From positions 1-60,140 of the forward strand of contig CANQYD010000008.1 in NCBI GenBank assembly GCA_947627985.1: a stretch of DNA of 60,140 nt, written 5' to 3'. The notes below the pieces were generated by a model. That model saw only the letters and a list, made by a program, of their open reading frames with translations. It did not search any database and was not told the origin of the DNA. The DNA is from an uncultured Clostridia bacterium (GTDB taxonomy: Bacteria; Bacillota; Clostridia; Oscillospirales; Ruminococcaceae). This document shows positions 20,219 through 40,137 of the stretch, piece by piece (position 1 is the first letter of the stretch; each line of letters begins with the position of its first letter). Position numbers and translations under genes: made by a program.

Positions 20219-20575
20219 TCAGTATTCCCTTTTCCTCCCCTGCGTCCCGATAAACATATAAATTATCCACCCCACCGCGGTGCCGATATAAAACGCCGCG
20301 GGGTACATCGAAATCGCAAGGATCGCTATCCCCAAGATCAGCGAGCCGAGGGCGTCCCAGTCGGAAAGCCCAAAGGCGGCGGCGATAAACCCGCCTCCCG
20401 CCAGCGCCATAATCGCGATGACGACCTTCCCGAATATCGTCGGTATCAGCTTCACCGGCATGCTCTTCGCGAACATGCAAAAGAGAATCTGAATCCCCAC
20501 CCCTGCCGCAAAAATTCCTCCCTCGGTCGCGGCAAAGATCATTCTGCCGAAAATGTCCGAATCGGTAAACTGCAT
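20219..20575 (-). CDS. Small integral membrane protein, last gene of the transporter cluster
   Basis: 118 aa, mostly hydrophobic, with about four membrane segments (around residues 15-35, 45-65, 72-90 and 93-110) and a basic end. No family recognised. The ATG has GGGAGG about six bases before it and lies 12 bases after the stop of the FtsX-type permease gene, so it closes the minus-strand operon. It may be an accessory subunit of that permease. Confidence 0.7.
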   Translation of the reverse strand: MQFTDSDIFGRMIFAATEGGIFAAGVGIQILFCMFAKSMPVKLIPTIFGKVVIAIMALAGGGFIAAAFGLSDWDALGSLILGIAILAISMYPAAFYIGTAVGWIIYMFIGTQGRKREY

Positions 20576-20587
20576 ACTTTCCTCCCG

Positions 20588-23401
20588 TCAGTCCTCGCCG
20601 AGTTTCAGCGCTTTGTTGATGTTGATCTGCTTGATCAGCCTCGCGATCACAATGAACCCGACCAGCAGCATGATAAGAACGATCACATATAGCTTGATAT
20701 AGTCGCTGCGCTGGGAGATCACCCTGAACGGCGGCACCTGATCGGTGACGTTGTAGAGCACTTGGAACAGCGGCACGAAGATGTCCGAAGCGATACCGCC
20801 GATGATTATCGACAGGAAGATCGACACGCCGGACACCAAGACCTGCTCGTAGACGATCATCGCGATGATTTCTCTAAAGCTCATTCCCATCGCCCGCAAA
20901 ATGCCGAACTGAAGCGTCCTTCCCTTGATCGAGAGGATCCAGTAGATCAGGAAGCCGATGAAGCACATCGCCATTATCGTGATGAACCCGAGGGTCAGCG
21001 CGCCGTTCACGCCTTGCAGGACGGCGTCCGTCTTTGAGGAGATGATGAGCTGCGAGGCGACGTCAAGGCGGGTCGCGACGATATCGCGGTCGATTACGTC
21101 CTGATAAAGTTTTGAGATATCCGCGCCGTCCTCAAGCTTGAGCCAGACTTCGTAGGGCTCGGTGATGGTCATTATCGACATGTAGTCGTAGTTTAATATC
21201 ACGAAATCCCGGTATTCTCCGGCTGAATTCTTGTCGTAGGGATTCAGCGCGGGCCAATAGTCCACAATCGCGACGACCACCGTCTCGAACCAATCGTTTC
21301 TCGCCCACTTTATTTCGAGGACGTCGCCCAGCTTTATCCCCGACTTATCGGCGTAGGATTTTGAGATGATGATGCCGTCCTGGCACTCGTTTAAAGCGTT
21401 GATATAGTTGTTTATGTGCGACGGCAGGAGGTCTGAGCGGAACCATGCGACCTTCGCAAACTGGTCCGGGATTATCGCCATCGCGTGCACGTCCGGGGTG
21501 GTCTTTTCATCATAGCGAAGCTGCACCGCGTCTCTTTGGAACACCGGTGTCGCGAGCTCAACCCCCGAGAGAGTGGAATATCTTTCAAAATCAGGTTCGG
21601 TATACTGCGTGGTCGAGCTGTCTTCACCCGTCTCGGGATCGACGACCTTCACGCGGCTCGTCTTCCAAGCTTCGGTGATGACCGCGTCGGCGCCGAGATT
21701 ATACCTGATCCTGTCCTCGGTATTTCTGTTTATAGCCCTCGCGGTATTTGCAGAGAAAATCCCGAGCGCGACAGTCAGAATCAGGAAGATCATGATGAAC
21801 TTCTCCCGACCCGTCGAGCTTCTGCCGATGTTGTTTAGGGATATATATGCCGCCGGGGACCAGCGCTTTTTGCCGATCCGGTAGACGAGACGGATAAAGT
21901 AGGGATAAATCCTCACGCACAAAAGCGCCGCGCCTAAGATAAATACCGTCGAAGCCGCAAACATCAGCGGGTTCATCGTCGAGGACGTATCCACAATGCC
22001 CTGACTGATGAGGTTGTCGTTCAGCCTGTTATACCACCAGAGCCACGCGATCGGCAGGACTATGCAGAAAATATCAAGGAATGAGCGCTGCCAGAAGGGC
22101 TTTTTCTGCTCGTGGGCTTTGGACTGCTTGTGCGCGACGATTGAGACCCTCGAAGCCGGGATTATCGGCAGAAGAGTCGTCACAAAGAACACTCCGACTG
22201 CGGCAAGGGCATATCCGAAAGCCGTCAGCGAGAGTTTTGCATGGAGCGCCGGGCGGTTCACAAATTCGAGGAAGCCGTTCGATACTCCCAAAATATTGCA
22301 GAGCCCGAGCCCCACAAAAGGTCCGACCAGAGCCGCGATCGCGCCTAAAATCAGCGTTTCATATGCATAAATTCTCAAAATCTGCCAGCTCGAAGCGCCT
22401 CGGGATTTTAACATCGCGATCTCGTTTCGTTCGCTCTCAATATTTAACTGCGATACCATAAAGAGGTAGAATATCAGCATCAATATGACCGGGATATCGA
22501 GCATGAGAAGGATATATTTTAAGGACGCCGCCTTTTTGGCATAATCCTCCAAGACCGCCTGAGCCGGGACCTCGAAGGTCGCGTTGTCGTCGTCATACTG
22601 ATCTTTCTGCACCTCGAAGCGGTTTCTGACGTGCTCGATGACGTTCATGTCCATGTGCTGGTAGTCGATGATGATACGGACATCAACCTGATTTAAATTC
22701 ACAACTCCCGTTAAAATCACGTCGTCGGTAAGCGTGTTAAAGTCGCAGAATACGGTGTTATCGTATTCCGTCAAGCCCTCCGACCAGTATGTGTCGTTCG
22801 GGTCCGAAAGCTCAAACACGCCCACTACCTTGATCTTGACGGTGTCGCCGGGGCTTAGAATATTTGTGACCTCATAGACGGTGTCCGGCATCATCTGAGC
22901 CGTCTGGAGGGCGCGCTCGGTGCATATCACCTCATAGACGCCGTCGGACGTCTTTCCCGGCTCGAACATGCGACCCGTTTTTATGCTGACATGATCGCCG
23001 ATGTCGGTCATTCCGCCTAACTTGACAAGCGGACGGTCCCCCTCGGTCTCGATGTTGGTGATGTATAAATAGGCGTCGGAAGTGTAGCACTTGTGCGTGA
23101 GATATGGCACAAGAAGATCGTTAAATCTATTAACCGCCTTGGCGTAAATGTCGTGGACGGTGTTTCTCTGCCTGACGGCGTTGGAGCCGGAGATTATGGT
23201 CTTCGAGACGGCGTAAACTCCGGGATATTCCCCCGTCTCCTCCTGATATGCCTGCATGTCCTTGATGAGCATTCTCTGTAAGGACGCGTGCATGTAGATG
23301 GGTATCGTGCTGGTCATGGCTGTCGCCATGATGAAGCCGATCAGCAGGCAGATGACCATCCATTTTGTGTTTCGCATCTTGCGAATCAAAAGAGTGAGCA
23401 T
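20588..23401 (-). CDS. FtsX/MacB-like ABC transporter permease
   Basis: 937 aa. An N-terminal anchor (KWMVICLLIGFIMATAMT, about 14-31) is followed by a large extracytoplasmic region, three membrane segments (about 303-325, 352-375 and 395-420), a second large external domain and a C-terminal FtsX domain with three more segments. The motif before the FtsX helices (NEIAMLKSRGASSWQI and LQFGILRAMGMSFREI) is the cytoplasmic coupling helix typical of the MacB/LolC/FtsX class, present twice. Such permeases act with a LolD-type ATPase by mechanotransmission. The adaptor lipoprotein gene is 31 bases upstream, and the matching ATPases are the first two genes of the cluster. Confidence 0.85.
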   Translation of the reverse strand: MLTLLIRKMRNTKWMVICLLIGFIMATAMTSTIPIYMHASLQRMLIKDMQAYQEETGEYPGVYAVSKTIISGSNAVRQRNTVHDIYAKAVNRFNDLLVPYLTHKCYTSDAYLYITNIETEGDRPLVKLGGMTDIGDHVSIKTGRMFEPGKTSDGVYEVICTERALQTAQMMPDTVYEVTNILSPGDTVKIKVVGVFELSDPNDTYWSEGLTEYDNTVFCDFNTLTDDVILTGVVNLNQVDVRIIIDYQHMDMNVIEHVRNRFEVQKDQYDDDNATFEVPAQAVLEDYAKKAASLKYILLMLDIPVILMLIFYLFMVSQLNIESERNEIAMLKSRGASSWQILRIYAYETLILGAIAALVGPFVGLGLCNILGVSNGFLEFVNRPALHAKLSLTAFGYALAAVGVFFVTTLLPIIPASRVSIVAHKQSKAHEQKKPFWQRSFLDIFCIVLPIAWLWWYNRLNDNLISQGIVDTSSTMNPLMFAASTVFILGAALLCVRIYPYFIRLVYRIGKKRWSPAAYISLNNIGRSSTGREKFIMIFLILTVALGIFSANTARAINRNTEDRIRYNLGADAVITEAWKTSRVKVVDPETGEDSSTTQYTEPDFERYSTLSGVELATPVFQRDAVQLRYDEKTTPDVHAMAIIPDQFAKVAWFRSDLLPSHINNYINALNECQDGIIISKSYADKSGIKLGDVLEIKWARNDWFETVVVAIVDYWPALNPYDKNSAGEYRDFVILNYDYMSIMTITEPYEVWLKLEDGADISKLYQDVIDRDIVATRLDVASQLIISSKTDAVLQGVNGALTLGFITIMAMCFIGFLIYWILSIKGRTLQFGILRAMGMSFREIIAMIVYEQVLVSGVSIFLSIIIGGIASDIFVPLFQVLYNVTDQVPPFRVISQRSDYIKLYVIVLIMLLVGFIVIARLIKQININKALKLGED

Positions 23402-23432
23402 TTTCGTTCCTCCGAAGGAAAATTGTCAAAAT

Positions 23433-24476
23433 TTATCTGATGATCACCTCGTCGCCCTCTTCAAGCCCGGAAGTTATTTCGACAAGCGAGCCGCTCTGGA
23501 GCCCGAGGGTGACGTTTACCTGCGTGCGCTGGTTGTCCTTGAACACATAGACGCACTTCACGCCGTCGACGGTCTTGACAAGGTTTGCCGAGATCACGAT
23601 GACGTCCTTCCTCTCGTCTAATACAAGAAGCGTGTCGGCGATGTTTCCGACGGACGAGCTCTCGGGGATCATGTCGTTGAACCTGACGGTCACGGCGTCT
23701 GTGGGTGCCGTTAAGATATCTTCGCCGTTTTCATCTTTTAAGGGTCCGCCCGAGGCTTCGTCCCACTGCTCTCCGGTGGTATTTCCGACGATGGTGCCGT
23801 CAAAATATTCTCCTTCGTATCTTATCTTGATGGGTCTGCCGACCATGAATTCCTCTTTTTCGTCGGGGTCGATCTTGATATAAAGATCGGTCACGTCGAT
23901 GACCTTTACGACCGTCACGCCGGGGTTTACCCAGTCGCCGGGGGAACATGTCAGAACATACGACACCGTTCCCGACACCCCGGAATAGAGCTTAGCAGCC
24001 TCTTTTTCGTCATAGAGCTTGTCGAGATCATTCTGCATAAGCTCGACGTCCAAAAGCTCCTTAGCCTTGACGTTTTCGCTCTCGTGCTTTTCGACCGCGA
24101 TGTCGTACTCAAGCTGCTCCCGATAGAGCTCTTTTTCCTTTCTTGCGATGTTGCTGTCAAGCTCATACGTCTCGAATTCGGCTAAGAGCTGACCTTCCTC
24201 GACGGTGTCGCCCGCATGGACGTAGACTGCCTTGATGTTTCCTCCCACGTCCTGAAATCTCGCGTTATATTCGGTGCCGGAAGCGATCGCGCCCGGGGTG
24301 AGTATCTGCTTTGTGAGATCGCGCCTGGTGGCGGCGGTGGTGGTGTAGGAGACCTCGTTCTCCCTGACTACCGGCGCTTCCAGGAGCTCCTCCTCTTCGG
24401 GAAGGAAATAGCACCCGCTCGCCGAGAAAATTACGGCTCCCGCGATAGCTGCGAGCATGATTCTGTTAAGCTTCAT
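23433..24476 (-). CDS. MacA/HlyD-like efflux adaptor lipoprotein
   Basis: 347 aa from the second ATG (AGGAGG six bases upstream). Lipoprotein signal with lipobox SASGC at about residue 22. Then the standard adaptor layout: a biotinyl-lipoyl half (NIKAVYVHAGDTVEEGQLLAEFE), a helical hairpin (about 105-150), the second lipoyl half (SGVSGTVSYVLTCSPGDWV) and beta-barrel domains ending in SGLEEGDEVIIR. It would join the FtsX-type permease encoded next to form a MacAB-like complex at the outer face of the membrane. The gap to the GH26 gene upstream holds a heptad repeat. Confidence 0.87.
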   Translation of the reverse strand: MKLNRIMLAAIAGAVIFSASGCYFLPEEEELLEAPVVRENEVSYTTTAATRRDLTKQILTPGAIASGTEYNARFQDVGGNIKAVYVHAGDTVEEGQLLAEFETYELDSNIARKEKELYREQLEYDIAVEKHESENVKAKELLDVELMQNDLDKLYDEKEAAKLYSGVSGTVSYVLTCSPGDWVNPGVTVVKVIDVTDLYIKIDPDEKEEFMVGRPIKIRYEGEYFDGTIVGNTTGEQWDEASGGPLKDENGEDILTAPTDAVTVRFNDMIPESSSVGNIADTLLVLDERKDVIVISANLVKTVDGVKCVYVFKDNQRTQVNVTLGLQSGSLVEITSGLEEGDEVIIR

Positions 24477-24514
24477 AATCATCCTCCTAAAGATGCTCCC
24501 GAATCGGTCGCATC

Positions 24515-24589: not shown

Positions 24590-26203
24590 TCAGTAATCTA
24601 TCTCATCTTTGGTGATGACGGTGTCCGCGGAATAGAAGATATCCCAGTCGTACGCCGGCATGAACATCTCGGAAAGCTCGCCGTCCAGCTCGGAATAAAT
24701 CCCCGAAAAGACCGAGCAGAATAGCCAGCGGCAGTTGTCGCGGGACATTTGGTCAGGGCTCGGAAGCTCGGCGCATTCGCTGATCGCAGCGGGTTTTGAG
24801 CTTATCCTCTGGGCTTCGAGCATGAATTCCACCCCGCTTCTTGAGCCGTCGTAGCCCTCGGGATAGTAAAGATCATACGAGACGATGTCGGCATAGTCGT
24901 CGCCGGGGTAAAACGCCTCGTCCTCGCCGTTCCAGATGAAGATGAGATTGTCGAGCCCGTGATAGAAATCGAGCCGATCGAATATCAGGCGGTATAGCCA
25001 GAGATAGCTTTCGGCGTCCTGACCCCACCAGAAAAGCCCGTTGCCGGCCTCGGGAAGCGGTCTGAACAGGACGGGAATTTTCTCGTCGCGAAGCCTTTTT
25101 AGTTGGATAGCGACAAGATCGATCCCGTCGATCACCATCAGCGTTTCGGTGGAGATGTCTCCCGCCTTATATCGCTCGTTGAGGGCTCCGCCGTCCATCG
25201 AAGCGATGTCGAGATCGGTCACGGCTTTTTTGAGATCGAAGCCGTTTTCGAGATACAGTGAACCTCCCATCTCCCAGTACCAGCTGTAGCCGACGATCCC
25301 GCCGTCCTCAGCCCAATCAAGGGCAAGCTCGATGTCGCCCGAGTCGTCGCCGGAAGAATATCCCATCAGCTCACCGAAGCGTATCGCCGGGTACTTGCCG
25401 ATCGCGTTATAGACGGCGTCTATCTCGGCGTTCGAGCCTTGGGAGCACTGCTGCGCGGAAAGGGTCTTATCGCCGTATAATCCGCTTAAATATTTATACA
25501 GATTTTTTGCAGCCCTCAGAGGGCTTTCGTTGACGGGCTTCGTACCTACGTCGTACTCCAAATCTTCGGCGCTTGTCGATGATTCAATGAGCACGCAGTC
25601 AAGATATGCTCTGCCGTCAAAATCCCCCAAAACAAGGGTATGAGCCCCCGCTGAGAGGTATATATTGTCAAATTTCAGCGAGACAAAGCCCTCGGACGGC
25701 TCTATCTCAAAGCTCTGCGACAAATTCGAGCCCTCGCATACTATGCTCCCCTCGGCTCCCGCGTCGGAGGAGGCTCTTAGGGTGAAGCTGTAGTGCTGAT
25801 CAGAGGGCACCGCGATGTCCAAAACGGCGCAGGCGCCCATGCCGGAGCATGCCAAAGTCCCCGAGCCGGAATACCCCGCGGGAAGGTCGGTTATCTCCCC
25901 CGAGATCGGTTTGAAGTCCTCAAATTCATAGAGCTTGCTGAAATCCTTGTGTTCGATGCTGTAGTCCGCGACTTCGTAGACGTCCGGGACCGGGGTCGTC
26001 GCCTCGGTCGGCGGTATCGGCATTGTCACCGGAGGATTCGTCGCGGTGGTCTCCTCCGTCGTCGTGACGGGTTCGGTCGTGAGATCGGTACCCGTGGTTA
26101 TGCTGTTTTCCGTCGTGATCATGCCGCTTTGCTCTTCGGTCTGATTTGAACATCCAGATAAAATCAGCGCGCAGCATAATATCACGGAAAGAAATCTTCT
26201 CAT
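24590..26203 (-). CDS. GH26 (beta-mannanase-like) lipoprotein with a carbohydrate-binding-like N-domain
   Basis: 537 aa from an ATG with AGGGGA upstream; an earlier in-frame start would spoil the signal. Lipobox ILSGC, then a Thr/Pro/Glu linker (TTEPVTTTEETT), a beta-rich domain of about 140 residues resembling a CBM (DFKPISGEITDLPAGYSGSG) and a TIM-barrel. GH26 motifs are visible: LSAQQC near the barrel start, the acid/base region VLFRPLPEAGNGLFWWG and the nucleophile region AAISECAELPSPDQ. GH26 enzymes cleave beta-1,4-mannans, beta-1,3-xylan or related glycans; the substrate is not certain here. Surface-anchored, and embedded in a transporter operon, consistent with glycan capture. Confidence 0.85.
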   Translation of the reverse strand: MRRFLSVILCCALILSGCSNQTEEQSGMITTENSITTGTDLTTEPVTTTEETTATNPPVTMPIPPTEATTPVPDVYEVADYSIEHKDFSKLYEFEDFKPISGEITDLPAGYSGSGTLACSGMGACAVLDIAVPSDQHYSFTLRASSDAGAEGSIVCEGSNLSQSFEIEPSEGFVSLKFDNIYLSAGAHTLVLGDFDGRAYLDCVLIESSTSAEDLEYDVGTKPVNESPLRAAKNLYKYLSGLYGDKTLSAQQCSQGSNAEIDAVYNAIGKYPAIRFGELMGYSSGDDSGDIELALDWAEDGGIVGYSWYWEMGGSLYLENGFDLKKAVTDLDIASMDGGALNERYKAGDISTETLMVIDGIDLVAIQLKRLRDEKIPVLFRPLPEAGNGLFWWGQDAESYLWLYRLIFDRLDFYHGLDNLIFIWNGEDEAFYPGDDYADIVSYDLYYPEGYDGSRSGVEFMLEAQRISSKPAAISECAELPSPDQMSRDNCRWLFCSVFSGIYSELDGELSEMFMPAYDWDIFYSADTVITKDEIDY

Positions 26204-26228
26204 AAAAAATCCCCTGTAAATAACCGTC

Positions 26229-26260
26229 AAAACCTGCCGCTTGAATGAAACGGCAGGTTT
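26229..26260 (-). terminator. Internal terminator between permease and GH26 genes
   Basis: Perfect 10-bp stem AAACCTGCCG/CGGCAGGTTT with an 11-base loop; read on the minus strand it ends in TTTT. It would reduce expression of the GH26, adaptor and FtsX genes relative to the upstream half. Confidence 0.65.
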
Positions 26261-26316: not shown

Positions 26317-27438
26317 TTACATACCGGTCAGACCGGAACGCGCAAGACCTTCGGTGAAGTGCTTTTGCAGGAAGATGTACATGACCAGAATCGGCGCGAT
26401 TGAGAGCAGGCAGCCCGATTCAAGCCAGACGATCTTCTTTCTTGTGCCGACCTGAGCGCCGTTAAAGAGGAGCTGGTCGAGGTCGTTTGACAGCTTCTGA
26501 AGCTGAAGCGCGACGGTGTGGTAGCTGTTGAAGTAGGTGGAAGAGATGTAGTAGTCGTTCCAGTACCAGACGATGGAGAAGAGGAATACGGTCAGGAACG
26601 CGGACGAGGCGTTCGGGATCATGATCTTGACAAAGGTCTTGAAGGGTCCGCAGCCGTCTAAGTATGCGGCGTCTTCGAGCTCGATCGGCAGTCCTCTGAA
26701 GAACTGGCGGAAGATGAAGATGAAGAGTCCCGACTTGATACCGTTTGCAAAGATCGCCGGCGCGTACATGACGATCGGAACATCGATCATCGAGCAGTAG
26801 AGCGAGCCGTCAAATTCGGAGACCTGAATGGTCTTGCCGAAGATTGTCTTGACTCCCATGGAGGCAAGCAGCTTGACAAGTCCGAAGCCCTTGAAGAACG
26901 CCCACTGCAAGTAAAGCGGAATGACGGTGATCTGCGGGGGGACGATGATCTGCATGATCACGAGCGCGAAGCAGATGCCCTTGCCCTTGAAGTTGAATCT
27001 TGCGAGACCGTAGCCGGTTATAGCGCAGGTCACGACCGACAGAAGCGAGCAGACGAGGTTCAGCTTAACAGTGTTCCAAAGGGTCATGCCGAAGTCCATG
27101 ACTTCCCAGGTATCGATCATGTTTGAAAGCGTTAAGGACTTAGGCAGCCAGATGACGGACGGGTCTGTCATCTGAATGTTGGGTCTGAAAGCCGTCGAGA
27201 ACATGTAGATAAGCGGGTAGAGGATGACGAAGCAGAGCCCGAAGAGAATGAGGAACCTGAAGAAGGGCCATACTTTGCTCATCAATGCCTTACGCCTTAA
27301 ATAAGCGGTGTGCTCGGGGGATACTATGCGCTCGTCCAAAGTGCCTGCCTTCTTGGCGGCTTTATATGCCTTATGCCGCTCTTTGAGGGCTTTTGCACGT
27401 TCTTTTTCAAACAGTTTTTCTTCTTTTGCAGTTGCCAT
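26317..27438 (-). CDS. Carbohydrate ABC transporter permease (MalG type), pair 2
   Basis: 373 aa, with a Lys/Glu-rich N-terminal extension of about 60 residues before the first membrane helix (FFRFLILFGLCFVILYPLIY). Six membrane helices and the EAA loop LEDAAYLDGCGPFKTFVKIM that docks the ATPase. The tail ends EGLARSGLTGM, typical of MalG-like permeases. AAAGGAGG precedes the ATG. Partner of the MalF-type permease encoded 13 bases upstream. A pair-2 solute-binding protein is not encoded here, so it may share the large binding protein of the cluster. Confidence 0.88.
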   Translation of the reverse strand: MATAKEEKLFEKERAKALKERHKAYKAAKKAGTLDERIVSPEHTAYLRRKALMSKVWPFFRFLILFGLCFVILYPLIYMFSTAFRPNIQMTDPSVIWLPKSLTLSNMIDTWEVMDFGMTLWNTVKLNLVCSLLSVVTCAITGYGLARFNFKGKGICFALVIMQIIVPPQITVIPLYLQWAFFKGFGLVKLLASMGVKTIFGKTIQVSEFDGSLYCSMIDVPIVMYAPAIFANGIKSGLFIFIFRQFFRGLPIELEDAAYLDGCGPFKTFVKIMIPNASSAFLTVFLFSIVWYWNDYYISSTYFNSYHTVALQLQKLSNDLDQLLFNGAQVGTRKKIVWLESGCLLSIAPILVMYIFLQKHFTEGLARSGLTGM

Positions 27439-27451: not shown

Positions 27452-28459
27452 TTATACCTCGTAGTAAACGAATTTGTTGAGTATCGGCAGGACGATGCAC
27501 AGCGCCGCGATTACTATCGCGAAGTATGCCCACGCCATAGCCGCCGAATAACCGTGGTTCCAGCCGGAAGCCTCTCTTAAAACTATCGTCATGACGCCGT
27601 TTGCCGGGTCGATGAAGGAGTCGACGATAGTGTAGATGAGGTTTGTGACGATCATCGGGCTGATGTAGGGGATCGTGATCTTCCAGAAGAATTCCCAAGC
27701 CGTAGCGCCTTCGATGGAGGCTGCTTCACGCGCCGAAACAGGGATATTCTGCAAAGCGGAGAGGAAGATGATGATCTGGATACCGGAATCCCAGACGAGG
27801 TTGAATACGTTTGACGTTACCGTCGATATCAGATCCGTGACCTTATCCGAGATGTTGTACACGCCCAAGAAATTCAGCAGTGCGCCCGTCATATCCGTCT
27901 CGAACATTGTCGAGAACGCTTCCGCGCCTCCCGAGTAGCCCGAGGTGTCCATATCGCCGTTGATGATCGAGATAACGGGTCCCGTGGCGATGATGACGGG
28001 GAGGAAGAATACCGCTCTTGCGAAGGTTCTGCCTCTGAATTTCTGGTTTAAGATGACCGCGATGAATATCGAGAAGATAATGATTAGCGGGGTCTGCCAG
28101 AGGGTGTCCTTTAAGACGACGAGGAGAGCCTCGGTGTATTCGGTGTCCTTTCTGAACGCGTCGATGTAGTTCTGAATGCCGATGAAGGTTGTGCTCATGT
28201 GTCCGAGCTCGACCTTTGTGGTGTTCAAAGAGTACCAGAATGATACGAGCAGAGGTCTGATAAAGAAGTAGAGGGAGCCGATGATCCAGATCGCCAGGAA
28301 TCCGTAGGCGTAGAGGGCTTTTCTGCGCTCATAGGCGATCCTCATGCCCTTTACTTTAGGGGCTTTTTCAGGCTTAGGCTCCTTGACCTTGGGCTCTTTG
28401 ACCTTTGGCGCCTTGACCTCCTTGACCGCTTTTACGGTCTCGTTTTGGGTGTCAGCCAT
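27452..28459 (-). CDS. Sugar ABC transporter permease (MalF type), pair 2
   Basis: 335 aa with a highly basic N-terminal tail carrying short KVKEP/KAPKVK repeats (about residues 10-40), then six membrane helices. The EAA loop SAREAASIEGATAWEFFWKI is intact. It starts inside the stop of the DUF5696 gene (TAATG overlap), so expression is coupled to it. Works as the heterodimer partner of the next gene. Confidence 0.88.
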   Translation of the reverse strand: MADTQNETVKAVKEVKAPKVKEPKVKEPKPEKAPKVKGMRIAYERRKALYAYGFLAIWIIGSLYFFIRPLLVSFWYSLNTTKVELGHMSTTFIGIQNYIDAFRKDTEYTEALLVVLKDTLWQTPLIIIFSIFIAVILNQKFRGRTFARAVFFLPVIIATGPVISIINGDMDTSGYSGGAEAFSTMFETDMTGALLNFLGVYNISDKVTDLISTVTSNVFNLVWDSGIQIIIFLSALQNIPVSAREAASIEGATAWEFFWKITIPYISPMIVTNLIYTIVDSFIDPANGVMTIVLREASGWNHGYSAAMAWAYFAIVIAALCIVLPILNKFVYYEV

Positions 28460-31665: not shown

Positions 31666-33332
31666 TTGCCTCTGCCCCCTTTCTTAACTTTGTCAACGAC
31701 GCTCACGGCGATGTTTTTACACCCGTCCGCAAGCTTGCCGATGCCGGTTGCGATGAGCTTTTGCGGGATTTTTCCCTTGCGCTGCAATACTTTAACGACG
31801 ATGTAAAGTATAACAAGCGCCAAGATGATGAATACATAAAGGGTGAAGTTCTTTCTTAAGCCCTCCTGACGGTTAGCCTCGAACGCCTTGTCGTACTCCT
31901 TGGAATAGTAAGAGAGTTTTGAGTATTTCATGGCGCCCTCGTAATCGTCCTGATTGTAAAGGGCTTTTGTGACGCCGACAAGACCCATGTAGTAGGCTCC
32001 GTCGCGCTTTAAGACTTCCTTCCAGATGTCGTAGGCTTCTTCGTAAAGTCCCTGATTGTGAAGGGCGATAGCCTCGTGGACATAGGAGCCGAACTCGGTC
32101 ATTCCGAAGACGGTGATGTCGTTGTTACGACCGTCTAAGATGTAGATTTTGTCCTCCCAAGTCTCGATGGCGTTCGGGTTTGAGAATCCGCCGCGCTGCT
32201 CTTCCTGATCGAATCCGAAGATGAAGAGGAGGTTGCATCTCTCGTCATACTGGAATACGCGTCCCGAGGTGTAGTCGAGGATATTGATGAACTTGTCGTC
32301 CGAGACTGCGATATCGGTAAGACGGGTGGCGTATGTCGTGCCGTTATATGTAACGGAAATCTGATCGCCGAAGGAGTTGTTATCGGCTGTTCTCTCAAGG
32401 ATATTGTAGCCCGCGGGGTTCATCTTCTTGACCGCGTCGGTGGTGGCGTTTGCGACCTCGGTGACGGTGTAGATGAAGCCTTCGTCGTCGATGTCGAAGT
32501 TAGCGTACTCAACAGGGGTGGACTTCGTAAGAGACGCTATCTGCTCTTCGGAAGCTATCTTTCTCCAGAGCTTGTTTCTTATGACGTCCGCCGTGACTTC
32601 AACTCTGTTTGCGCCGTAGTAACCAACGAATGAGCCGGAATCTGAGAACATTATAGCGCCCTTATTGACAGCCGGGCAGATGACGTAGACGTTTTTAGCG
32701 GCGTCGACGAGAACCTTTGTGCAGTAGAAGGACTGCGACTCATAAAGAGCGGTCTCGGGCTTGTAGTATTCCTGCAAAATCCTTGCAGTGGTGGGAGTTT
32801 CGGCAACGCATTTTACGATTCTTTGGTTGTCTCTGTCGGCGATGTACATGACGTCGTCCTCATCGACAAAGATACCGTAAGGAGCCTTTAAGTTGTCGGC
32901 GTCGACCTCGATCTCGTTGCCCTCTTCATCGGTAACGATATGCTTTGAAGTGGAGCCGGGGAAGGTCTTGAAAACTGCTAAAAGCTCAAAGTCGCTTGAA
33001 AGCTTGACGATTCTGTTGTTTCCGGTATCGACGATATAAATCTCGCCCTTTTTGGATACGAAGAAGTCCTTCATATCCGAGAAGTTGACGTTCTCGTCGT
33101 CCGAGATGTAAAATTCCGAGGTGGGGTCCTGAACCCGCTCAAGACCGATATCGCGATAGTTTACGGTCTGAACGACTTCATAGCCCGCCTGAGAGGGGAG
33201 CGCGTTATACCACGCGTCGTAGTTATAGGTAGTGTAGGGATCAACTGCGCTGACAGTCGCGCACATAAGCGAGAGCGAAAGCGCTGCAGCGATCAGTACA
33301 GCCGTTAAGTTTTTAAGTTTCATACTTTTCAC
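31662..33332 (-). CDS. NHL-repeat protein with C-terminal TPR-like region and membrane anchor
   Basis: 556 aa from GTG 33332 (AAAGGTG about seven bases before); an ATG three codons in is an alternative. Signal peptide or anchor (TAVLIAAALSLSLMCATVSA), then at least three NHL-type blades (GEIYIVDTGNNRIVKLS, VMYIADRDNQRIVKC, KIYILDGRNNDITVF), a TPR-like helical stretch (NQGLYEEAYDIWKEVLKR, QDDYEGAMKYSKLSYYS) and a C-terminal membrane helix (LYVFIILALVILYIVVKVL) with a basic tail. It is thus an extracellular beta-propeller held to the membrane. Probably a glycan-binding or scaffold role; this is inference. Confidence 0.8.
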   Translation of the reverse strand: MKSMKLKNLTAVLIAAALSLSLMCATVSAVDPYTTYNYDAWYNALPSQAGYEVVQTVNYRDIGLERVQDPTSEFYISDDENVNFSDMKDFFVSKKGEIYIVDTGNNRIVKLSSDFELLAVFKTFPGSTSKHIVTDEEGNEIEVDADNLKAPYGIFVDEDDVMYIADRDNQRIVKCVAETPTTARILQEYYKPETALYESQSFYCTKVLVDAAKNVYVICPAVNKGAIMFSDSGSFVGYYGANRVEVTADVIRNKLWRKIASEEQIASLTKSTPVEYANFDIDDEGFIYTVTEVANATTDAVKKMNPAGYNILERTADNNSFGDQISVTYNGTTYATRLTDIAVSDDKFINILDYTSGRVFQYDERCNLLFIFGFDQEEQRGGFSNPNAIETWEDKIYILDGRNNDITVFGMTEFGSYVHEAIALHNQGLYEEAYDIWKEVLKRDGAYYMGLVGVTKALYNQDDYEGAMKYSKLSYYSKEYDKAFEANRQEGLRKNFTLYVFIILALVILYIVVKVLQRKGKIPQKLIATGIGKLADGCKNIAVSVVDKVKKGGRGK

Positions 33333-33379: not shown

Positions 33380-34354
33380 TTAGTCCTTCATACCGGAGTT
33401 AGCCATGGTCTCCATGACGTTAGACTGGGCAATCAGGAATATGACAAGCGGAGGGATCATCAGAACGACGGCGGAGGCGTAGATGATGCCCTGTCTCGCG
33501 ATACCGGAGGCTGCGATCTGCGACATGATGGTCGGCAGGGTCTTTAAGCTCTCCTTGTAGACGAGCGCACCGCCTTGGACGTTCCATGCGCCTTGGAAGA
33601 CGAAGATGATAAGCGTCGCTATAGCGGGCTTCTGGTTCGGGATGACGACCTGCCAGCAGGTCCTGAAAGCTCCCGCGCCGTCGACTCTTGCGGCGTCGAT
33701 GATGGCGTCGTTGATGGTTGACATGTTCTGCCTCATCAGGTACAGACCCATCGAAGTCGCGACGTTAGGAAGGATCATCGCCCAGTAGGTGTTGATCATT
33801 CCCATCTTCGCCATGATGACGAACTGCATGATCCACGTCGCCGTTGATGTGAAGAGCATCGAGGTGACGATCAGCTGGTTTGCGAATTTGTAGCCGGGAA
33901 TGTGCGGGCACTTAGCCAGAACGTAAGCGCAGCAGCAGACTACAAAGACGTGCATGATGGTGATCGCAATCGTGATGAATACCGAGTTGAACACGTATCT
34001 CGAGAAGGGAACCCAGAGGTTGCCCGCAACTTTGAAGAGGTTCGAGAAGTTCTCGGCGGTGGGCTGCTGAACATAGAGCTTAGGCGGGAATACGAAGAGC
34101 TCGCTGATCGGCTTTAAGGACTGAACGATGGAGTAGTAGAGCGGGAATACCATGAAGATTCCCAGCAGGCAGAGGAGAATGAATATGCAGATATCTCCGC
34201 CCAAAGAGCCGTTTATATGCTTGCCCTTTGACTTTTTGACTCTCGCCTTTTCGATGTCGCCTCTCTTTTTCTGGCGCTTCTTTAACTTTTTAAGCGCTTT
34301 TGCATTCGCTGCTTCCAGCGATTCCGGAACCATTTCCTTTGTGATTTCAGCCAA
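33380..34354 (-). CDS. Carbohydrate ABC transporter permease (MalG type), pair 1
   Basis: 324 aa from a TTG with AGGAGGGG seven bases before it. Basic N-terminal tail (KALKKLKKRQKKRGDIEKA), six membrane helices and an EAA loop DAARVDGAGAFRTCWQVVI. Starts 14 bases after the pair-1 MalF-type gene and forms a heterodimer with it. Both basic tails of the cluster's permeases are unusually long and may contact the ATPase or membrane. Confidence 0.88.
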   Translation of the reverse strand: MAEITKEMVPESLEAANAKALKKLKKRQKKRGDIEKARVKKSKGKHINGSLGGDICIFILLCLLGIFMVFPLYYSIVQSLKPISELFVFPPKLYVQQPTAENFSNLFKVAGNLWVPFSRYVFNSVFITIAITIMHVFVVCCCAYVLAKCPHIPGYKFANQLIVTSMLFTSTATWIMQFVIMAKMGMINTYWAMILPNVATSMGLYLMRQNMSTINDAIIDAARVDGAGAFRTCWQVVIPNQKPAIATLIIFVFQGAWNVQGGALVYKESLKTLPTIMSQIAASGIARQGIIYASAVVLMIPPLVIFLIAQSNVMETMANSGMKD

Positions 34355-34368: not shown

Positions 34369-35322
34369 TTAATCAGTGTATTTGCTGAGCACGCTTCTGA
34401 TAACGTGGTTGCATATCAGCATTACCGCGAAGAGTACGAAGCATATTGCGGACGCGTAACCCATCTCGTAACGGATAGAGCCGTAGTCGTTCGCGTGGTT
34501 CATGATCGTGTGGACCGCGTATCCCGTCGAAGGCAGTCCGCAGAGCGCCTGACCGACTGAGCCGACGGTGAACGCACCGGATATTGCCAAAACGGCTGCG
34601 AACAGAAGCGACGGACCCATAGCGGGGATAGTGATCGTGAAGAGCTCCTGGAAGCGGTTCTGGATTCCTTCGATGGCGCCCGCTTCATAGAGTGCGGTAT
34701 CGATTCCCTGGAAGCCCGCGCGCAATGCAAGGAAGCCTGCGCCCATCGACATCCAGAGCTGGACGATGATGACGACGGTCATCATGTACGTCACGTCCGT
34801 CAGCCACTGTTTTGCGGAATTTATGATTCCGAAGTCCAAAAGTACGGAGTTTAAGTATCCGTAGGAGTCGCCAGAGAAGACGAGCTGCCAGATTACGAAT
34901 GCCGACGGCGTCATCGACGGAGCGTAGAACACGAAGGTGAAGAATACCTTGAGGAAGGGGTTCATCTCGTTGATGAGCCATGCAAGCAGGAAGCTCAGTA
35001 CGTAGGAGAACGGACCCGTAAAGACCGCAAGGATCAGGGTGTTCTTGACCGCGATGAGGAATACGTCATCGTTTACGAACAGGGAGTAGAAGTTCTGAAG
35101 TCCTATGTAGCGCGGGAACTGAACGAGGTTGAAGCTCGTCAGACCGAGCGGCAGGGACATCACGACCGGTACTACTGTGAAGAGCGTGAACAGAATGAAG
35201 AAAGGAAGCATCATCCAGTAGCATGCCTGATTCATCTTCATCAGGTGAAGAGTGTACGCCGACTTGCTTTCGGTGTTGATCGGCTTCGGCTTTTTGACCT
35301 CGGCTGTTTTATCTTTTGCCAT
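34369..35322 (-). CDS. Sugar ABC transporter permease (MalF type), pair 1
   Basis: 317 aa, six membrane helices and EAA loop LYEAGAIEGIQNRFQELFTI. Follows the giant binding-protein gene by 13 bases, AAGGAGGG before the ATG. The usual order (binding protein, MalF, MalG) is kept for this pair; the sugar-type MsmX ATPase is absent from the window and two LolD-like ATPases precede the binding protein instead. Confidence 0.9.
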   Translation of the reverse strand: MAKDKTAEVKKPKPINTESKSAYTLHLMKMNQACYWMMLPFFILFTLFTVVPVVMSLPLGLTSFNLVQFPRYIGLQNFYSLFVNDDVFLIAVKNTLILAVFTGPFSYVLSFLLAWLINEMNPFLKVFFTFVFYAPSMTPSAFVIWQLVFSGDSYGYLNSVLLDFGIINSAKQWLTDVTYMMTVVIIVQLWMSMGAGFLALRAGFQGIDTALYEAGAIEGIQNRFQELFTITIPAMGPSLLFAAVLAISGAFTVGSVGQALCGLPSTGYAVHTIMNHANDYGSIRYEMGYASAICFVLFAVMLICNHVIRSVLSKYTD

Positions 35323-35335: not shown

Positions 35336-38257
35336 TTAAGATTCAGTGGGAACTTCGATTCCGAGTTCCTCGTATTTTCTTATGATCTCATCGTTGATAT
35401 CCTTGTTGTACCAAAGGAGAGTGTCTCTCGGGTTGGTACTGAGGTTGATGGTCTCTCTGAAAGCGTTGGTGATGTTACGGGTGACGATATATGTCGCGGG
35501 AATGATGTCGATATCGACCGTCGTATCCATCTGAGCCCTGATCATCTCAAGCTCCGACTGGCTCCATGCGAGCTGTCCCAAAGCCTCTCTGTTAGCCGTA
35601 TCGAAACGACCCATCGGTCCCAAGAGGGCTTCTATCGAGCGTCCGTACTCGGACTGGATCTCGGTGGAAGTGAACCACTTGATGAGCTCCCACGCGACCT
35701 CTCTCTGCTCCTGACTGAGCTTGGAGAAGATGATAGCTCCCGAGGAAGAAGAGGTGGTGGAGTGGTTGACGGTGCCGTCAGCCTGAACGGTGCCCGGCAT
35801 GAGCTGGAAGTCCCAAAGTCCTCTGATTTCGGGCGCCGCCATGTAGAGCTGGTTGTAGAAGGTGTAGCCGGTGATGACGATCGGGTACTCGCCTGTTCTG
35901 AAACGTGTGAACTGGTCGAACGTCTGCTCGAAGGAATATGTCGAGTAGAACTTGGTCCACATCTCAAACGCCTCGACGGCGGGCTGAGTCTCAAATATCG
36001 TCTTGGTCTTGGTATCGTTGTAGTAGCCGAGACCTCTCTGTACCATGAAGGTCGCATACGCGTCGAAGTTGAAGCCGACGCCCATGTAGCTTCTCTGGAG
36101 GGTCGGGAGCATGTCGATAAGCTCATCCCAAGTCTCGGGTCCCTTGTCGAATCCGAAGCCGGCTAAAACGTCGTTGCGGCAGAACATCATCGAGTAGTTC
36201 TGGGAGATCGGAAGCCCGTAGACGCCGTCCTGATAGGTGTAAAGGGTCATGACGTTGGGAGCGAATCTCTTGATGACTTCCTGATAATCCGGGAACTGGG
36301 AGATATCCACAAGGCAGTCACGGGCTGCAAGCTGGATAGGCAGGTCGCCTCCGACGAAGAGCACGACGTCAGGTCCCTTGCCCGCGAGGGTGGATTCCAA
36401 AATACCGCCCTGAACGAGGTTGATGTTGACGGGTCTCGTCTCGTTTGCGAAGTAGGAATCGACGAGCTCCTTGACTATCTGAGCCTGATCGCGTCCGAGC
36501 GAGACCCAGACGTTGAGGGCTGCCGCGTTGTCGTCGGAAAGAACGTCGTAATCTTCAAAGAAGGAGCCCAAGAAGCTGCGGAAGCTGAAGGAGAGCTGCT
36601 TGAAGAAGTTTTCCTTGATGGGGCTGAAATTCTGCTCGGCGGAAGCGATCTCGATGACGTCGATCTCAAGCGCCTGAGAGCGGTAGTCAGCCATCCACTG
36701 GGAAAGCGAGGAGATATTGTCCTTGATCTGACTGAGGCAGCCCGGAATGTCGTCCGGCTTGTCGATAAGTCTGTCAAGAAGCTTAGCCATCGTCTCAAGG
36801 GAGACGGCTTCGGTGCCCTTTGTGCCCGCAAGCGTCTCGACTTCGGACTTGATGTCTCTTAAGGTATCGGCATAGGTCTGGAAATCGTCCAGAATGCCGA
36901 CGATCTGATTCTGGATCATGTAGGTGTTGTATTCGTCGGGGGAAGGACCGGTGATCTGCAAAATCTGGCGGTAGTAGCTGTTGAGATAGTAGACTACGTC
37001 GTCAAGTTTACGCATAATGCCGCCGATCTCGCCCGGCATCGCTTCCAGCATGAGATTGTGCTTGCCGGCGTCGAGGTAGAAGTAGAGGGTATTGCCGTCG
37101 GCGTCGGTGGGAGTTACGCATTCCCAGGTGGTGGAGTAGTAGAACTTCACCTGTTCAGCCTCTTCGCAGGGCACCACGCCGTCGATATAAAGCGTGCGGT
37201 TGGAGTAAAGACCTCTCATCTGGTCCTGTTTTGCCCTGATACCGATCTTGACCCAACCGGCTTTCGGCATCTCGAAGTCCCAGCTGATGTACTGGTTCGA
37301 GGTCTTCCAGTTTTCCTTGCCGATGGTGTTGTAGGTCATCTTGGTCGGGTCGGAAGGGGAAGTTAAGTAGGTCGAGCGGTCGTATGTAGGATATAAAGTG
37401 ATATCCGACGCGGTCGAAGGAACCTCGCCCTCGATGCTCACAAAGATATCGGTAGTAGACGACGCCTTGGATTCATCGGTGGTGACGTTGTCTTGCTCTG
37501 AAACGGAGACGGGTTCATCTTCCTGAGCGAGAGTTATCGATTTGATAGCAAATCTCGCCTTTTCGGAGATGAGGGTGATTGTGTGATGACCCTGCTCGAA
37601 GTAGAAGCCCAGAGGTCCGGCGAATAATCCGTCGCCGTCTTTGAACCATGCTGTCTGCCAGCCGAGCTGCTCTTCAAGGGTAGGTCTTATCTGGTTGTCG
37701 TGAACGTCTTTTCTGAATCCGGCGCGGTTTCCGGCTTCATCGTGCTCAAACGAGCTCTCGGCGCCCACCCAGATTTTGGACAGCGAGATTCTTTCCGCGG
37801 AATCAAACGGGATTTCACCGTCTATCGCCACGGAAAATTCGATGTTGTTTGCGGAGCTTGCGAGGGCGTAGTAATCGATCTTTACGCCGTAAACGCCTGT
37901 TGTCGGGACGTCGATCTCAAAACTGACTTCTCCCGAAGCCTCGGGCCAGAAGAGAACCTCTCCCGCACCGTCGGCGCCGTCGCCGATGTAAGCGCCCGTT
38001 TCCTCCGACCACTCAACGCAGTCCTTGCCCATGACCGTGACTTCACCCGCAGGTCTTGGGTCGTTTGCATGCGTATCGTAATATGTGCCGTAGGTACGCG
38101 CTCTGTTCGCCTCGTCGATCGACTGCGCCGAGGTCTCCTTCTTCGGCTCTGCCGGATCGGCTGGCTCGGCGTCGGCAAATACCGCCGGGATCATCGGCAG
38201 TACCATCGCCATAGCTATGACAATCGCGCTCAGACGCCTTAACATTTTGTCTTTCAC
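35336..38257 (-). CDS. Giant extracellular solute-binding protein with carbohydrate-binding-like domains
   Basis: About 973 aa from a GTG (AAAGGTGG seven bases before); signal peptide AIVIAMAMVLPMIPAVFA. Two beta-sandwich-like segments (about 60-230, with GEVSFEIDVPTTGVYGVKID, and about 290-420, with WDFEMPKAGWVKIGIRAK) resemble CBM6/CBM35-type modules. They are followed by a helical bundle (about 430-560) and, from about 570, a family-1 solute-binding domain (TRPVNINLVQGG, KGPDVVLFVGGDLPIQLA, VYGLPISQNYSMMFCRNDVL). Typical binding proteins are about 430 aa. No lipobox is present, so it may be held by other proteins. Fusion of CBM-like domains to a binding protein suggests binding of a long polysaccharide. 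Confidence 0.85.
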   Translation of the reverse strand: MKDKMLRRLSAIVIAMAMVLPMIPAVFADAEPADPAEPKKETSAQSIDEANRARTYGTYYDTHANDPRPAGEVTVMGKDCVEWSEETGAYIGDGADGAGEVLFWPEASGEVSFEIDVPTTGVYGVKIDYYALASSANNIEFSVAIDGEIPFDSAERISLSKIWVGAESSFEHDEAGNRAGFRKDVHDNQIRPTLEEQLGWQTAWFKDGDGLFAGPLGFYFEQGHHTITLISEKARFAIKSITLAQEDEPVSVSEQDNVTTDESKASSTTDIFVSIEGEVPSTASDITLYPTYDRSTYLTSPSDPTKMTYNTIGKENWKTSNQYISWDFEMPKAGWVKIGIRAKQDQMRGLYSNRTLYIDGVVPCEEAEQVKFYYSTTWECVTPTDADGNTLYFYLDAGKHNLMLEAMPGEIGGIMRKLDDVVYYLNSYYRQILQITGPSPDEYNTYMIQNQIVGILDDFQTYADTLRDIKSEVETLAGTKGTEAVSLETMAKLLDRLIDKPDDIPGCLSQIKDNISSLSQWMADYRSQALEIDVIEIASAEQNFSPIKENFFKQLSFSFRSFLGSFFEDYDVLSDDNAAALNVWVSLGRDQAQIVKELVDSYFANETRPVNINLVQGGILESTLAGKGPDVVLFVGGDLPIQLAARDCLVDISQFPDYQEVIKRFAPNVMTLYTYQDGVYGLPISQNYSMMFCRNDVLAGFGFDKGPETWDELIDMLPTLQRSYMGVGFNFDAYATFMVQRGLGYYNDTKTKTIFETQPAVEAFEMWTKFYSTYSFEQTFDQFTRFRTGEYPIVITGYTFYNQLYMAAPEIRGLWDFQLMPGTVQADGTVNHSTTSSSSGAIIFSKLSQEQREVAWELIKWFTSTEIQSEYGRSIEALLGPMGRFDTANREALGQLAWSQSELEMIRAQMDTTVDIDIIPATYIVTRNITNAFRETINLSTNPRDTLLWYNKDINDEIIRKYEELGIEVPTES

Positions 38258-38322
38258 TTTGAATCCACCTTTCAATAGATTTGGAGTGTCTATTTTCTCT
38301 CCGAATGAGGTTGATAAAGAAA

Positions 38323-39282
38323 TTATTCAGCCTTGCGGATATATATCCGCTGCTGCTCTTGGTCAAGATCAGCCCTGACCTTCGTCCCTCCCTTGATATC
38401 GAGGGCTTCAAGATATTCCTTCGGGATCTGCATTCTCCCCGTGCGGTCGAGTACCACAAGCTCCTCCGAGACCTCCTCAGCCTCGGCGGTCGTGCCGTCG
38501 TCCCAGCCGCTCGTTTGCTCCGACATTATCTCGGCGTGAGATTTTTTAATGATCTCGCTCGAAGTTCTGCCGTCGCGGATCGATATCACCCGATCTATCT
38601 TTTTTGCAAGCCGCAGGTCGTGTGTGACTATAACGACCGTCACGCCCCGCTTCTGATTGATTTCTTTGAATACGTTTAAGAGCTGATCGGAAGTCTTTGT
38701 GTCCACCGATCCCGTCGGCTCGTCTGCAAGAAGTATCGCTGGATTGTTTGCCAAAGATATCGCGATCGCGACCCTCTGCTGCTCGCCTCCCGACATCTGA
38801 TCCAAGCGGGAATTCACGCGATTTGAAAGCCCGACGGCGTCCAAAAGTTCTAAAGCTCGCTCTCTTCGCTGCTTCTGACCCTGCAAGAGCATCGGCAGCT
38901 CGACGTTTTGCTCGGCTGTGAGATAGGGCACCAAGTTTCTCGCGTTATTCTGCCACACAAACCCGACGGTGTTTCGCTTGTAGTTCATGTAGTCCTCCTC
39001 GGTGAATTTCAAAAGATTTCTCCCGTTCACCGTAAGGCTCCCGGCTGACGGTTTATCCAGCCCGCCGAGCATATTTAAAAGCGTCGATTTTCCGGAGCCC
39101 GACGTCCCGACGATGGCAACCAGCTCGCCCTTTTTTATCTGCAAATCGAGACCCTGAAGCGCCACGACCTCGATCTGGTCGGTCTTGTATATTTTTACCA
39201 GATTTTCGCATTCGATCGCATATTCGCTCTCGGCGATGAGTTCCTGCTCATGTTCGAGCTTTGCCTTTTTCTTTTTAGTCAA
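38323..39282 (-). CDS. LolD/MacB-type ABC ATPase with a C-terminal AbrB-like domain
   Basis: About 319 aa; start uncertain (TTG at 39282 with GGTGAG upstream, or GTG at 39291; the frame is open to 39321), overlapping the first ATPase gene. Walker A GTSGSGKSTLLN, signature MSGGEQQRVAIA, Walker B AILLADEPTGSVD. After about residue 240 a linker is followed by DRTGRMQIPKEYLEALDI plus KVRADL, a match to the SpoVT/AbrB or MazE swapped-hairpin fold. An ATPase with such a tail is unusual; it could dimerise the ATPase or bind DNA. Supplies energy to the FtsX-type permease or to the sugar permeases of the cluster. Confidence 0.85.
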   Translation of the reverse strand: MTKKKKAKLEHEQELIAESEYAIECENLVKIYKTDQIEVVALQGLDLQIKKGELVAIVGTSGSGKSTLLNMLGGLDKPSAGSLTVNGRNLLKFTEEDYMNYKRNTVGFVWQNNARNLVPYLTAEQNVELPMLLQGQKQRRERALELLDAVGLSNRVNSRLDQMSGGEQQRVAIAISLANNPAILLADEPTGSVDTKTSDQLLNVFKEINQKRGVTVVIVTHDLRLAKKIDRVISIRDGRTSSEIIKKSHAEIMSEQTSGWDDGTTAEAEEVSEELVVLDRTGRMQIPKEYLEALDIKGGTKVRADLDQEQQRIYIRKAE

Positions 39283-39952
39283 CGATCTCACCGTCCTCAA
39301 GCGTATATACGCGGTCGGCAATCTCCAAAAGGCTGACGTCGTGGGTCGTCATGACGATGGTCATGTGCTCGTCTAAGACCAGCCTCTTGAACAGCTCGAC
39401 GATGTGATGCGACGTGCCGGAGTCGAGTTCCGCAGTCGGTTCGTCCGCAAAGATTATCTTCGGCTCATGCGCTAAAGCCCTTGCGATCGCGACTCTTTGC
39501 TGCTCGCCGCCCGATAGTTCGCCGGGTCGGTGATCCATTCGCTTCGCAAGTCCGACTTCCTCGAGGCATTTTTTCACTCTTTCCTGCCTCTTTTCGAGGG
39601 GAAATCCTGCCAGCCTCAGCCCGAAATCGACGTTTTCATACGCCGTCATCGAGCTCATCAGCGCCACCGACTGGAAAACGAACGCCATCTGATATCTTCT
39701 GATCTCGTCGCGCTTTAAATCGCTGAGTTTGGTGATATCCTGCCCGTCGAAGATGACCTCGCCCGAGGTGGGTCTGTCAAGCGCGCCGAGCATATTTATC
39801 AGCGTCGTCTTGCCGGAGCCGGATCGACCTTTTAAGATCGTCAGCCGCCCTTCCGCAACCTGTATATTAACACCCCTCAGCGCGTGGACCACGCTTCCGT
39901 CTCCGATCACGAAATCCCGGGTGATGTTTGTCGCCGTCAAAAGCTCTGCCAT
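39275..39952 (-). CDS. LolD/MacB-type ABC ATPase
   Basis: 225 aa. Walker A GRSGSGKTTLIN, signature LSGGEQQRVAIARALA, Walker B IIFADEPTAELDS, and the switch His in MTTHDVSL. Size and the short helical insert are those of MacB/LolD-type ATPases that work with FtsX permeases. First gene of the cluster, with GGAG eight bases before the ATG and a strong promoter about 150 bases upstream. Two such ATPases in a row may form a heterodimer. Confidence 0.92.
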   Translation of the reverse strand: MAELLTATNITRDFVIGDGSVVHALRGVNIQVAEGRLTILKGRSGSGKTTLINMLGALDRPTSGEVIFDGQDITKLSDLKRDEIRRYQMAFVFQSVALMSSMTAYENVDFGLRLAGFPLEKRQERVKKCLEEVGLAKRMDHRPGELSGGEQQRVAIARALAHEPKIIFADEPTAELDSGTSHHIVELFKRLVLDEHMTIVMTTHDVSLLEIADRVYTLEDGEIVD

Positions 39953-39971
39953 GTTTATACTCCGTAGTCAT

Positions 39972-39988
39972 TTGTGCATCTTGCACAA
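39972..39988. promoter_or_regulatory. Palindrome near the start of the cluster (possible operator)
   Basis: TTGTGCA-TCT-TGCACAA, 7-bp perfect arms, about 20 bases upstream of the first ATPase gene's start codon. It could bind a regulator or mask the ribosome site as a hairpin. Confidence 0.4.
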
Positions 39989-40018
39989 TTTGGGGTGTTA
40001 AATCTCTAAAACGACTTT

Positions 40019-40069
40019 AAGCAAATACTTTTTTCGGCAACTTCACCACGTGAAAAAAGATATTTGCTT
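40019..40069 (-). promoter_or_regulatory. Long hairpin in the 5' leader of the transporter cluster
   Basis: AAGCAAATA pairs with TATTTGCTT and the inner CTTTTTTC with GAAAAAAG; one bulged base, about 17 bp in total. It lies between the promoter and the first gene, so it is in the RNA leader. It may act as an attenuator or stabilising hairpin. Confidence 0.55.
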
Positions 40070-40108
40070 TAGTTAGGGTCTATTTATTTATCCGGATTTT
40101 ACGGATAT

Positions 40109-40137
40109 ATTATACCAAAGTGACAGGCTCGTGTCAA
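40109..40137 (-). promoter_or_regulatory. Consensus promoter of the transporter cluster
   Basis: On the minus strand TTGACA (40132-40137) and TATAAT (40109-40114) with a 17-base spacer, both perfect. The predicted start near 40102 gives a leader of about 150 bases. Confidence 0.85.

Follow-up and report, generated by a model that had tools for sequence, protein, structure and literature searches.

The window analysed here is a 60,140-nucleotide stretch of DNA, contig 8 (CANQYD010000008.1) of the genome of an uncultured Clostridia bacterium of the Ruminococcaceae (G000; 2.16 Mb in 72 contigs), and our subject is a cluster of 14 open reading frames (ORFs) within it that includes the genes of a putative sugar importer. 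The ORFs are all encoded on the minus strand and run from position 39952 down to 20219 (Table 1), with junctions of -47 to +107 bp, of which 12 of 13 are shorter than 90 bp and four overlap or abut. A first-pass annotation made from the sequence by itself had described a one-strand, closely spaced cluster starting at a consensus promoter, and both points hold, the promoter-like site being a 12/12 match to the sigma-70-type pattern. It is the one such site before the cluster; shuffled sequences give 0.9 when the threshold is relaxed to 9 of 12, and the perfect score is uncalibrated. A terminator-like hairpin of the preceding gene (40234..40208) lies just ahead of this match, and two more follow the last gene (20179..20160 and 20079..20063, minus strand). 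Between 19500 and 39400 weaker promoter-like matches on both strands number 19 against 13.1 in shuffles (standard deviation 4.0), which is indecisive on internal promoters. Judged from this layout, it is plausible that the 14 genes constitute a single operon.

Pfam agreed with the domain assignments made in the first-pass annotation: two ABC ATPases, an FtsX permease, an HlyD-type adaptor (MFP), a glycoside hydrolase (GH) of family 26, a solute-binding protein (SBP), NHL, Yip1 and DUF5696 proteins, and four permeases, of which MalG1 scores below the cut-off. The cluster is composed of two separable systems, namely an eight-gene core, from a giant SBP to the permease MalG2, and a four-gene FtsX/MacAB-like unit (system 2).

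Table 1. Features of the 14-gene cluster and of the region ahead of it, listed in the direction of transcription
Feature	Position	Strand	Basis
Sigma-70-type promoter match, TTGACA-17-TATAAT with extended -10	40109..40137	-	Pattern match 12/12
Leader of about 150 nt, strongly folded, with a long hairpin	39953..40105	-	Folding z -4.1 vs shuffles
nbdA, LolD/FtsE/MacB-type ABC ATPase (system 2)	39275..39952	-	Pfam; best NCBIfam matches below cut-offs
nbdB, second ABC ATPase with C-terminal AbrB/MazE-like tail (system 2)	38323..39321	-	PF04014 below cut-off, NCBIfam
Giant SBP, 979 amino acids (aa): two strand-rich N-terminal regions, helical stretch, MalE-like domain (core)	35336..38275	-	Pfam SBP_bac_8/1, predicted model
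MalF1 permease (core)	34369..35322	-	Pfam BPD_transp_1
MalG1 permease (core)	33380..34354	-	BPD_transp_1 below Pfam cut-off; NCBIfam UgpE-like, below its cut-off
NHL-propeller protein, N-terminal signal-like and C-terminal transmembrane segment; tetratricopeptide repeat (TPR) in relatives (core)	31662..33332	-	Pfam NHL
Yip1 membrane protein (core)	31030..31665	-	Pfam Yip1
DUF5696 secreted protein, GH129/GH101-like predicted fold (core)	28459..31029	-	Pfam, predicted model
MalF2 permease (core)	27452..28459	-	Pfam BPD_transp_1
MalG2 permease (core)	26317..27438	-	Pfam BPD_transp_1
GH26 lipoprotein (same genus: mostly near MFP-FtsX)	24590..26230	-	Pfam GH26, lipobox
MFP, HlyD/MacA-type adaptor (system 2)	23433..24482	-	Pfam
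FtsX-type permease (system 2)	20588..23401	-	Pfam FtsX, two stretches
118-aa membrane protein	20219..20575	-	Without Pfam family; profile matched in just two loci, both of the same genus (L045, L182)

We compared the neighborhoods of DUF5696 genes in 140 loci, of which 60 came from relatives and 80 were the best of at least 571 DUF5696-encoding stretches in named genomes; the scan of named genomes used two patterns per gene, and the stretches thus correspond to fewer genes. Genes were called with profiles built from relatives of the window's proteins. Two pairs of loci are the same places (L074/L157 and L075/L092), and counts over all 140 include both duplicates as well as truncated loci. Most named hosts are Paenibacillus or Cohnella; the others include Lachnospiraceae, other Clostridia, Gracilibacillus and a record labelled Bacillus subtilis DE0224. 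The order SBP-MalF1-MalG1-NHL-Yip1-DUF5696-MalF2-MalG2 recurs across the loci. Among the 67 named loci whose left flank is long enough, NHL is encoded within six ORFs upstream of DUF5696 in 66, the giant SBP and MalF1 in 65 each and MalG1 in 64, and both MalF2 and MalG2 are found in 72 of the 72 named loci with a right flank. Over all 140 loci, NHL (135), MalF2 (134) and MalG2 (134) lie within three ORFs, and MalG1 (125), MalF1 (124) and the giant SBP (123) within eight. The first-pass annotation had named linkage of the set in unrelated genomes as the sign that would support it; such linkage is seen for DUF5696, Yip1, NHL and both permease pairs, but not for the export-type unit, which is usually apart from the core and is linked to it in 3 of the 80 named loci. 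Separately, an 8.4-kb contig of a metagenome-assembled genome labelled Spirochaetaceae (L142) encodes NHL-Yip1-DUF5696-MalF2-MalG2, for which transfer or mis-binning is possible.

The same parts co-occur at the level of genomes. DUF5696 was detected (E<=1e-30) in 37 of 398 genomes of the phylum, spanning 20 genera and 15 family labels and including G000, and the NHL-Yip1 profile at the same threshold in 38. The giant SBP (E<=1e-60) was detected in 45, of which 40 score at least 650 bits and five match in the SBP domain alone (at most 284 bits). All 37 genomes with DUF5696 carry both an NHL-Yip1 profile match and a giant SBP of at least 650 bits; one further genome (G301) has an NHL fragment and is without DUF5696.

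A Yip1 gene was called in 94 of the 135 loci with an NHL call and was not called in 41. We considered loss of Yip1 from part of the loci and rejected it: in 32 of the 41, NHL proteins of 655-915 aa end in ~200 residues that match the Yip1 profile, so that the two are fused, and in the remaining nine the Yip1 ORF is concealed under another ORF. In such fusions Pfam recognizes NHL, Yip1 and, below its cut-off, TPR. That the two are joined in 32 of 135 loci suggests that NHL and Yip1 are physical partners. A search of open-licence literature for Yip1 or the NHL repeat together with transporter terms returned nothing.

The EAA-type loop couples a permease to its ATPase. An EAA-like motif can be recognized by eye in all four permeases of the window, and among relatives it was found in 119 of 122 MalF1, 106 of 125 MalG1, 100 of 133 MalF2 and 127 of 136 MalG2 sequences. 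The window encodes no ATPase of the OB_MalK type, in agreement with the first-pass annotation, which had reported that an MsmX-type ATPase is missing from the cluster; the genome encodes a single OB_MalK-domain ATPase elsewhere (C12:39089-39286). Such an ATPase is present in 39 of 40 chosen genomes, and exactly one is present in 29. Since all four permeases keep an EAA-type loop, both pairs are probably energized by the MalK/MsmX-type ATPase encoded elsewhere. MsmX of B. subtilis is described as a multitask ATPase (PMC7658222). Also in favor, one 1.8-Mb genome (G045, L057-L062) holds six DUF5696 copies and one OB_MalK ATPase.

The predicted model of the giant SBP (mean predicted local distance difference test score, pLDDT, 87.1; predicted template modelling score, pTM, 0.84) has two strand-rich regions within the first 415 residues, then helices, and a C-terminal part that matches oligosaccharide-binding proteins in a fold search. 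The strand-rich regions may be similar to carbohydrate-binding modules. Forty-two relatives, chosen for a length of 850-1150 aa, align to the window protein at 29-36% identity.

Our interpretation, to which we assign a probability of roughly 0.65, is that the eight genes from the giant SBP to MalG2 form a CUT1-type sugar importer with a fixed accessory set. Its translocating parts being ordinary, we class the core as a variant of CUT1 importers rather than a machine of a new kind. In the mechanism we propose, the giant SBP would capture glycan fragments and hand them to MalF1-MalG1, and MalF2-MalG2 would serve as a second translocation unit, both pairs being driven by the MalK/MsmX-type ATPase encoded elsewhere. 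DUF5696 would be located outside the cell, where its GH129-like fold may bind or trim the chain, and the NHL-TPR protein together with the Yip1 membrane domain could provide a membrane-anchored scaffold linking these parts. The flanking nbdA and nbdB, with MFP and FtsX, make up a separate FtsX/MacAB-like unit.

Several observations weigh against this interpretation. The order of genes varies, with the SBP-MalF1-MalG1 trio placed after MalG2 in L083, L086 and L088, and MalF2-MalG2 placed first in L062. The trio was not seen in the fetched stretch of L076, L077, L081, L134 and L146, and the genome from which L076 and L077 derive (G121) has its best giant SBPs on contigs other than those of these DUF5696 loci; its absence near some loci indicates that the NHL-DUF5696-MalF2-MalG2 part may stand alone. 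Conversely, three genomes (G138, G162 and G212) encode a giant SBP without DUF5696. Of 67 named loci, 56 have an ordinary SBP gene immediately before that of the giant SBP, which is in favor of the interpretation, but such a gene holds this place in only 3 of 16 phylum loci and 1 of 18 order loci and was found in none of 18 same-genus loci. The motif search missed 33 of the 133 MalF2 sequences. The genome profile ignores kinship and is computed per genome, not per locus, from the top two or three candidates of each genome. Finally, synteny is no proof of one complex, and the permease pairs could be two importers.

The alternative that survives best concerns DUF5696, which may be a working exo-glycosidase of GH129/GH101 type, removing side groups ahead of import, with an ordinary importer pair making up the remainder; we regard this as a tentative but serious possibility. 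The AlphaFold2 model of DUF5696, built with 64 sequences (mean pLDDT 78.1, pTM 0.80), has as its best Foldseek matches in the PDB the GH129 enzymes ZgGH129 (5opq; E 2.3e-27, target TM 0.65) and NagBb (5wzn; E 1.0e-21, 0.69), followed by GH101 structures. The whole-chain root-mean-square deviation from GH129 is about 9-10, which means that domain placement differs or is uncertain. GH129 is likewise recovered by a sequence profile without the model (whole-sequence E 3.3e-7); single stretches of ZgGH129 are weak, the match to NagBb is carried by one stretch, and the aligned part corresponds to the first barrel strands. Also in favor are D657 (Asp in 124 of 141 sequences) and D717 (Asp in 122 of 141). 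These are the best-kept acids together with the column of A753 of the window, which holds Glu in 118 of 122 sequences from outside the genus and Ala in 19 of 19 from within it. On the other side, a His and an Asp of NagBb that are Ala in the quadruple-mutant entry, and whose importance we infer because both were mutated, fall within the aligned stretch and are kept in 0 and 1 of 141 DUF5696 sequences, respectively. At position 649, a further candidate acid, 79 of 141 sequences have Asp, but only 1 of 19 from the same genus does, and the window has Ile. The sequence alignments end before the GH129 catalytic pair, so that the residue comparison is compatible with an active enzyme. The GH129 profile PF11308 gave no listed match at E<=10 to four DUF5696 proteins, a search in which the HMMER filters drop most weak matches, and none in 149 genomes of the phylum, which carries little weight as no control genome matched either. 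We lean towards DUF5696 being a receptor rather than an enzyme in the genus of the window. No open-licence literature on DUF5696 was found. Several same-genus genomes (G001, G014, G019, G024, G027, G009 and others) also show weak partial DUF5696 matches (profile positions ~195-400, E 1e-4 to 1e-11) in separate proteins of 630-690 aa, possibly a second, diverged family.

A more elaborate version of the importer would be a single Gram-positive glycan-import machine of two stages, in which the giant SBP loads one permease pair, DUF5696, as a glycosidase fold turned glycan receptor, takes over the task of a binding protein for the other, the propeller-TPR-Yip1 membrane protein holds both and a shared MalK/MsmX-type ATPase drives them; as a complete scheme we consider this doubtful. 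It is also unlikely that the core is simply two ordinary CUT1 importers for related sugars, accompanied by unrelated membrane genes and joined by co-regulation alone. MalF1 and MalF2, as well as MalG1 and MalG2, are just 21% identical, which speaks for this view, and the frequent ordinary SBP ahead of the giant one in named loci and the loci without the trio nearby agree with this. However, the near-identical genome profile of the three accessory parts over 15 family labels, together with the NHL-Yip1 fusion, appears to exceed what co-regulation usually produces.

The first-pass annotation had tentatively united the parts in one glycan capture-and-export machine, and this is not supported by the comparison. 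FtsX homologs (E<=1e-20) occur in 33 of 59 genomes searched. In two of these (G391 and G099) nbdA-MFP-FtsX-nbdB are contiguous, and in a third (G057) the unit is contiguous in the reordered form MFP-FtsX-nbdA-nbdB, in each case without core genes in the 20-kb stretch; the AbrB/MazE-like tail of nbdB recurs in the orthologs of all three. Within the genus, where the search covered 25 of 31 genomes, FtsX is present in all 25. It lies within 10 kb of DUF5696 in 13 and apart from it in 12, on the same contig at ~46-47 kb in three (G030, G024 and G006), on other contigs in eight, and in G009 together with GH26 and MFP in a genome where DUF5696 gives only a weak partial match. GH26, MFP and FtsX also stay together in G030 and G006; in G004 it is the core that GH26 accompanies, with MFP-FtsX placed on another contig. 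MFP-FtsX of G393 is on a different contig from its core, and FtsX of G140, G398, G125 and G432 is not near any scored DUF5696 copy (up to three). We therefore rejected a single 14-gene machine. As a rival reading, this view of the MalFG importers coupled to a MacAB-like unit for export or mechanotransmission, both acting on one surface glycan, is improbable: the two systems share cluster and promoter in the window, and the gene before the giant SBP is nbdB in all 18 same-genus loci and in G393, but the unit stands by itself in the genomes just described, and only 3 of the 80 named loci have the unit, or MFP-FtsX alone, at a distance of less than 10 kb from the core, two of them in the identical arrangement. 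In those three loci MFP-FtsX is directly before the giant SBP (L097, L101) or nbdA-MFP-FtsX-nbdB follows the core (L138), and a loose tie through a common substrate or regulation is possible. In addition, nbdA is before nbdB in all three genomes of the genus for which the stretch is long enough to show it.

A mannan-like substrate, also put forward in the first-pass annotation, is not favored by the genes beside the core. We took the first two genes past the core, of which 106 are on the same strand and encode 200-999 aa, and scanned 72 of these: GH26 was found in 10, GH10 and GH30 in seven each, GH43 in four and SBP_bac_1 in 11, and many other families matched one or two genes each (25 of 60 families listed). 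Upstream, 28 of 57 genes were scanned, with SBP_bac_8 in 22 and GH43 in five. As the glycosidases beside the core belong to many families, we rejected mannan-specific import. The core seems to be generic for hemicellulose-like glycans, with specificity probably set by the binding proteins and enzymes.

Other features of the window stand beside the cluster. An Rfam search of the window, including the leader, matched no family; a 69-base piece of the leader is found again in two genomes of the genus (L050/L180 and L181). A 771-aa protein encoded just ahead of the operon (40270-42585, minus strand) has a signal-like start, a hydrophobic C-terminal end and no Pfam family. Elsewhere the window encodes a member of the choloylglycine hydrolase family (47897-48877, plus strand; CBAH, 330 bits), the family of bile salt hydrolases, and an M18 aminopeptidase ORF that starts with an HTH_3 DNA-binding domain (14086-15660, minus strand).

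The presence of the core beside changing glycosidases in the best 80 of at least 571 stretches suggests that it may serve generally in the uptake of polysaccharides from plants or hosts. DUF5696, a family of unknown function, and the bacterial Yip1 family thereby gain a concrete context and a list of partners, and the core raises the question of why a single sugar importer should require both a second channel and a scaffold on the outside.

In comparison with known systems, the core has in common with CUT1 importers (MalEFGK, and the MsmX-energized importers of B. subtilis) the SBP fold, MalF/MalG-type permeases with EAA-like motifs and a candidate ATPase in trans, and differs from them in having two permease pairs within a single unit, an SBP of ~980 aa, and regular NHL-TPR, Yip1 and DUF5696 companions. 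DUF5696 resembles GH129 and GH101 enzymes (ZgGH129, NagBb, EngBF) in its predicted fold and in a weak sequence match; unlike them, it is tied to permeases and is without two of the residues mutated in the NagBb quadruple mutant, and its superposition is loose. System 2 shares with ABC systems of the MacAB/FtsEX type the MacB/LolD-type ATPases nbdA and nbdB, an HlyD-type MFP and an FtsX-domain permease, but it has two different ATPase genes, one of them with an AbrB-like tail, and is separable from the core. As in Gram-positive polysaccharide utilization loci, importer genes adjoin glycosidases, but here the core is constant while the glycosidases change.

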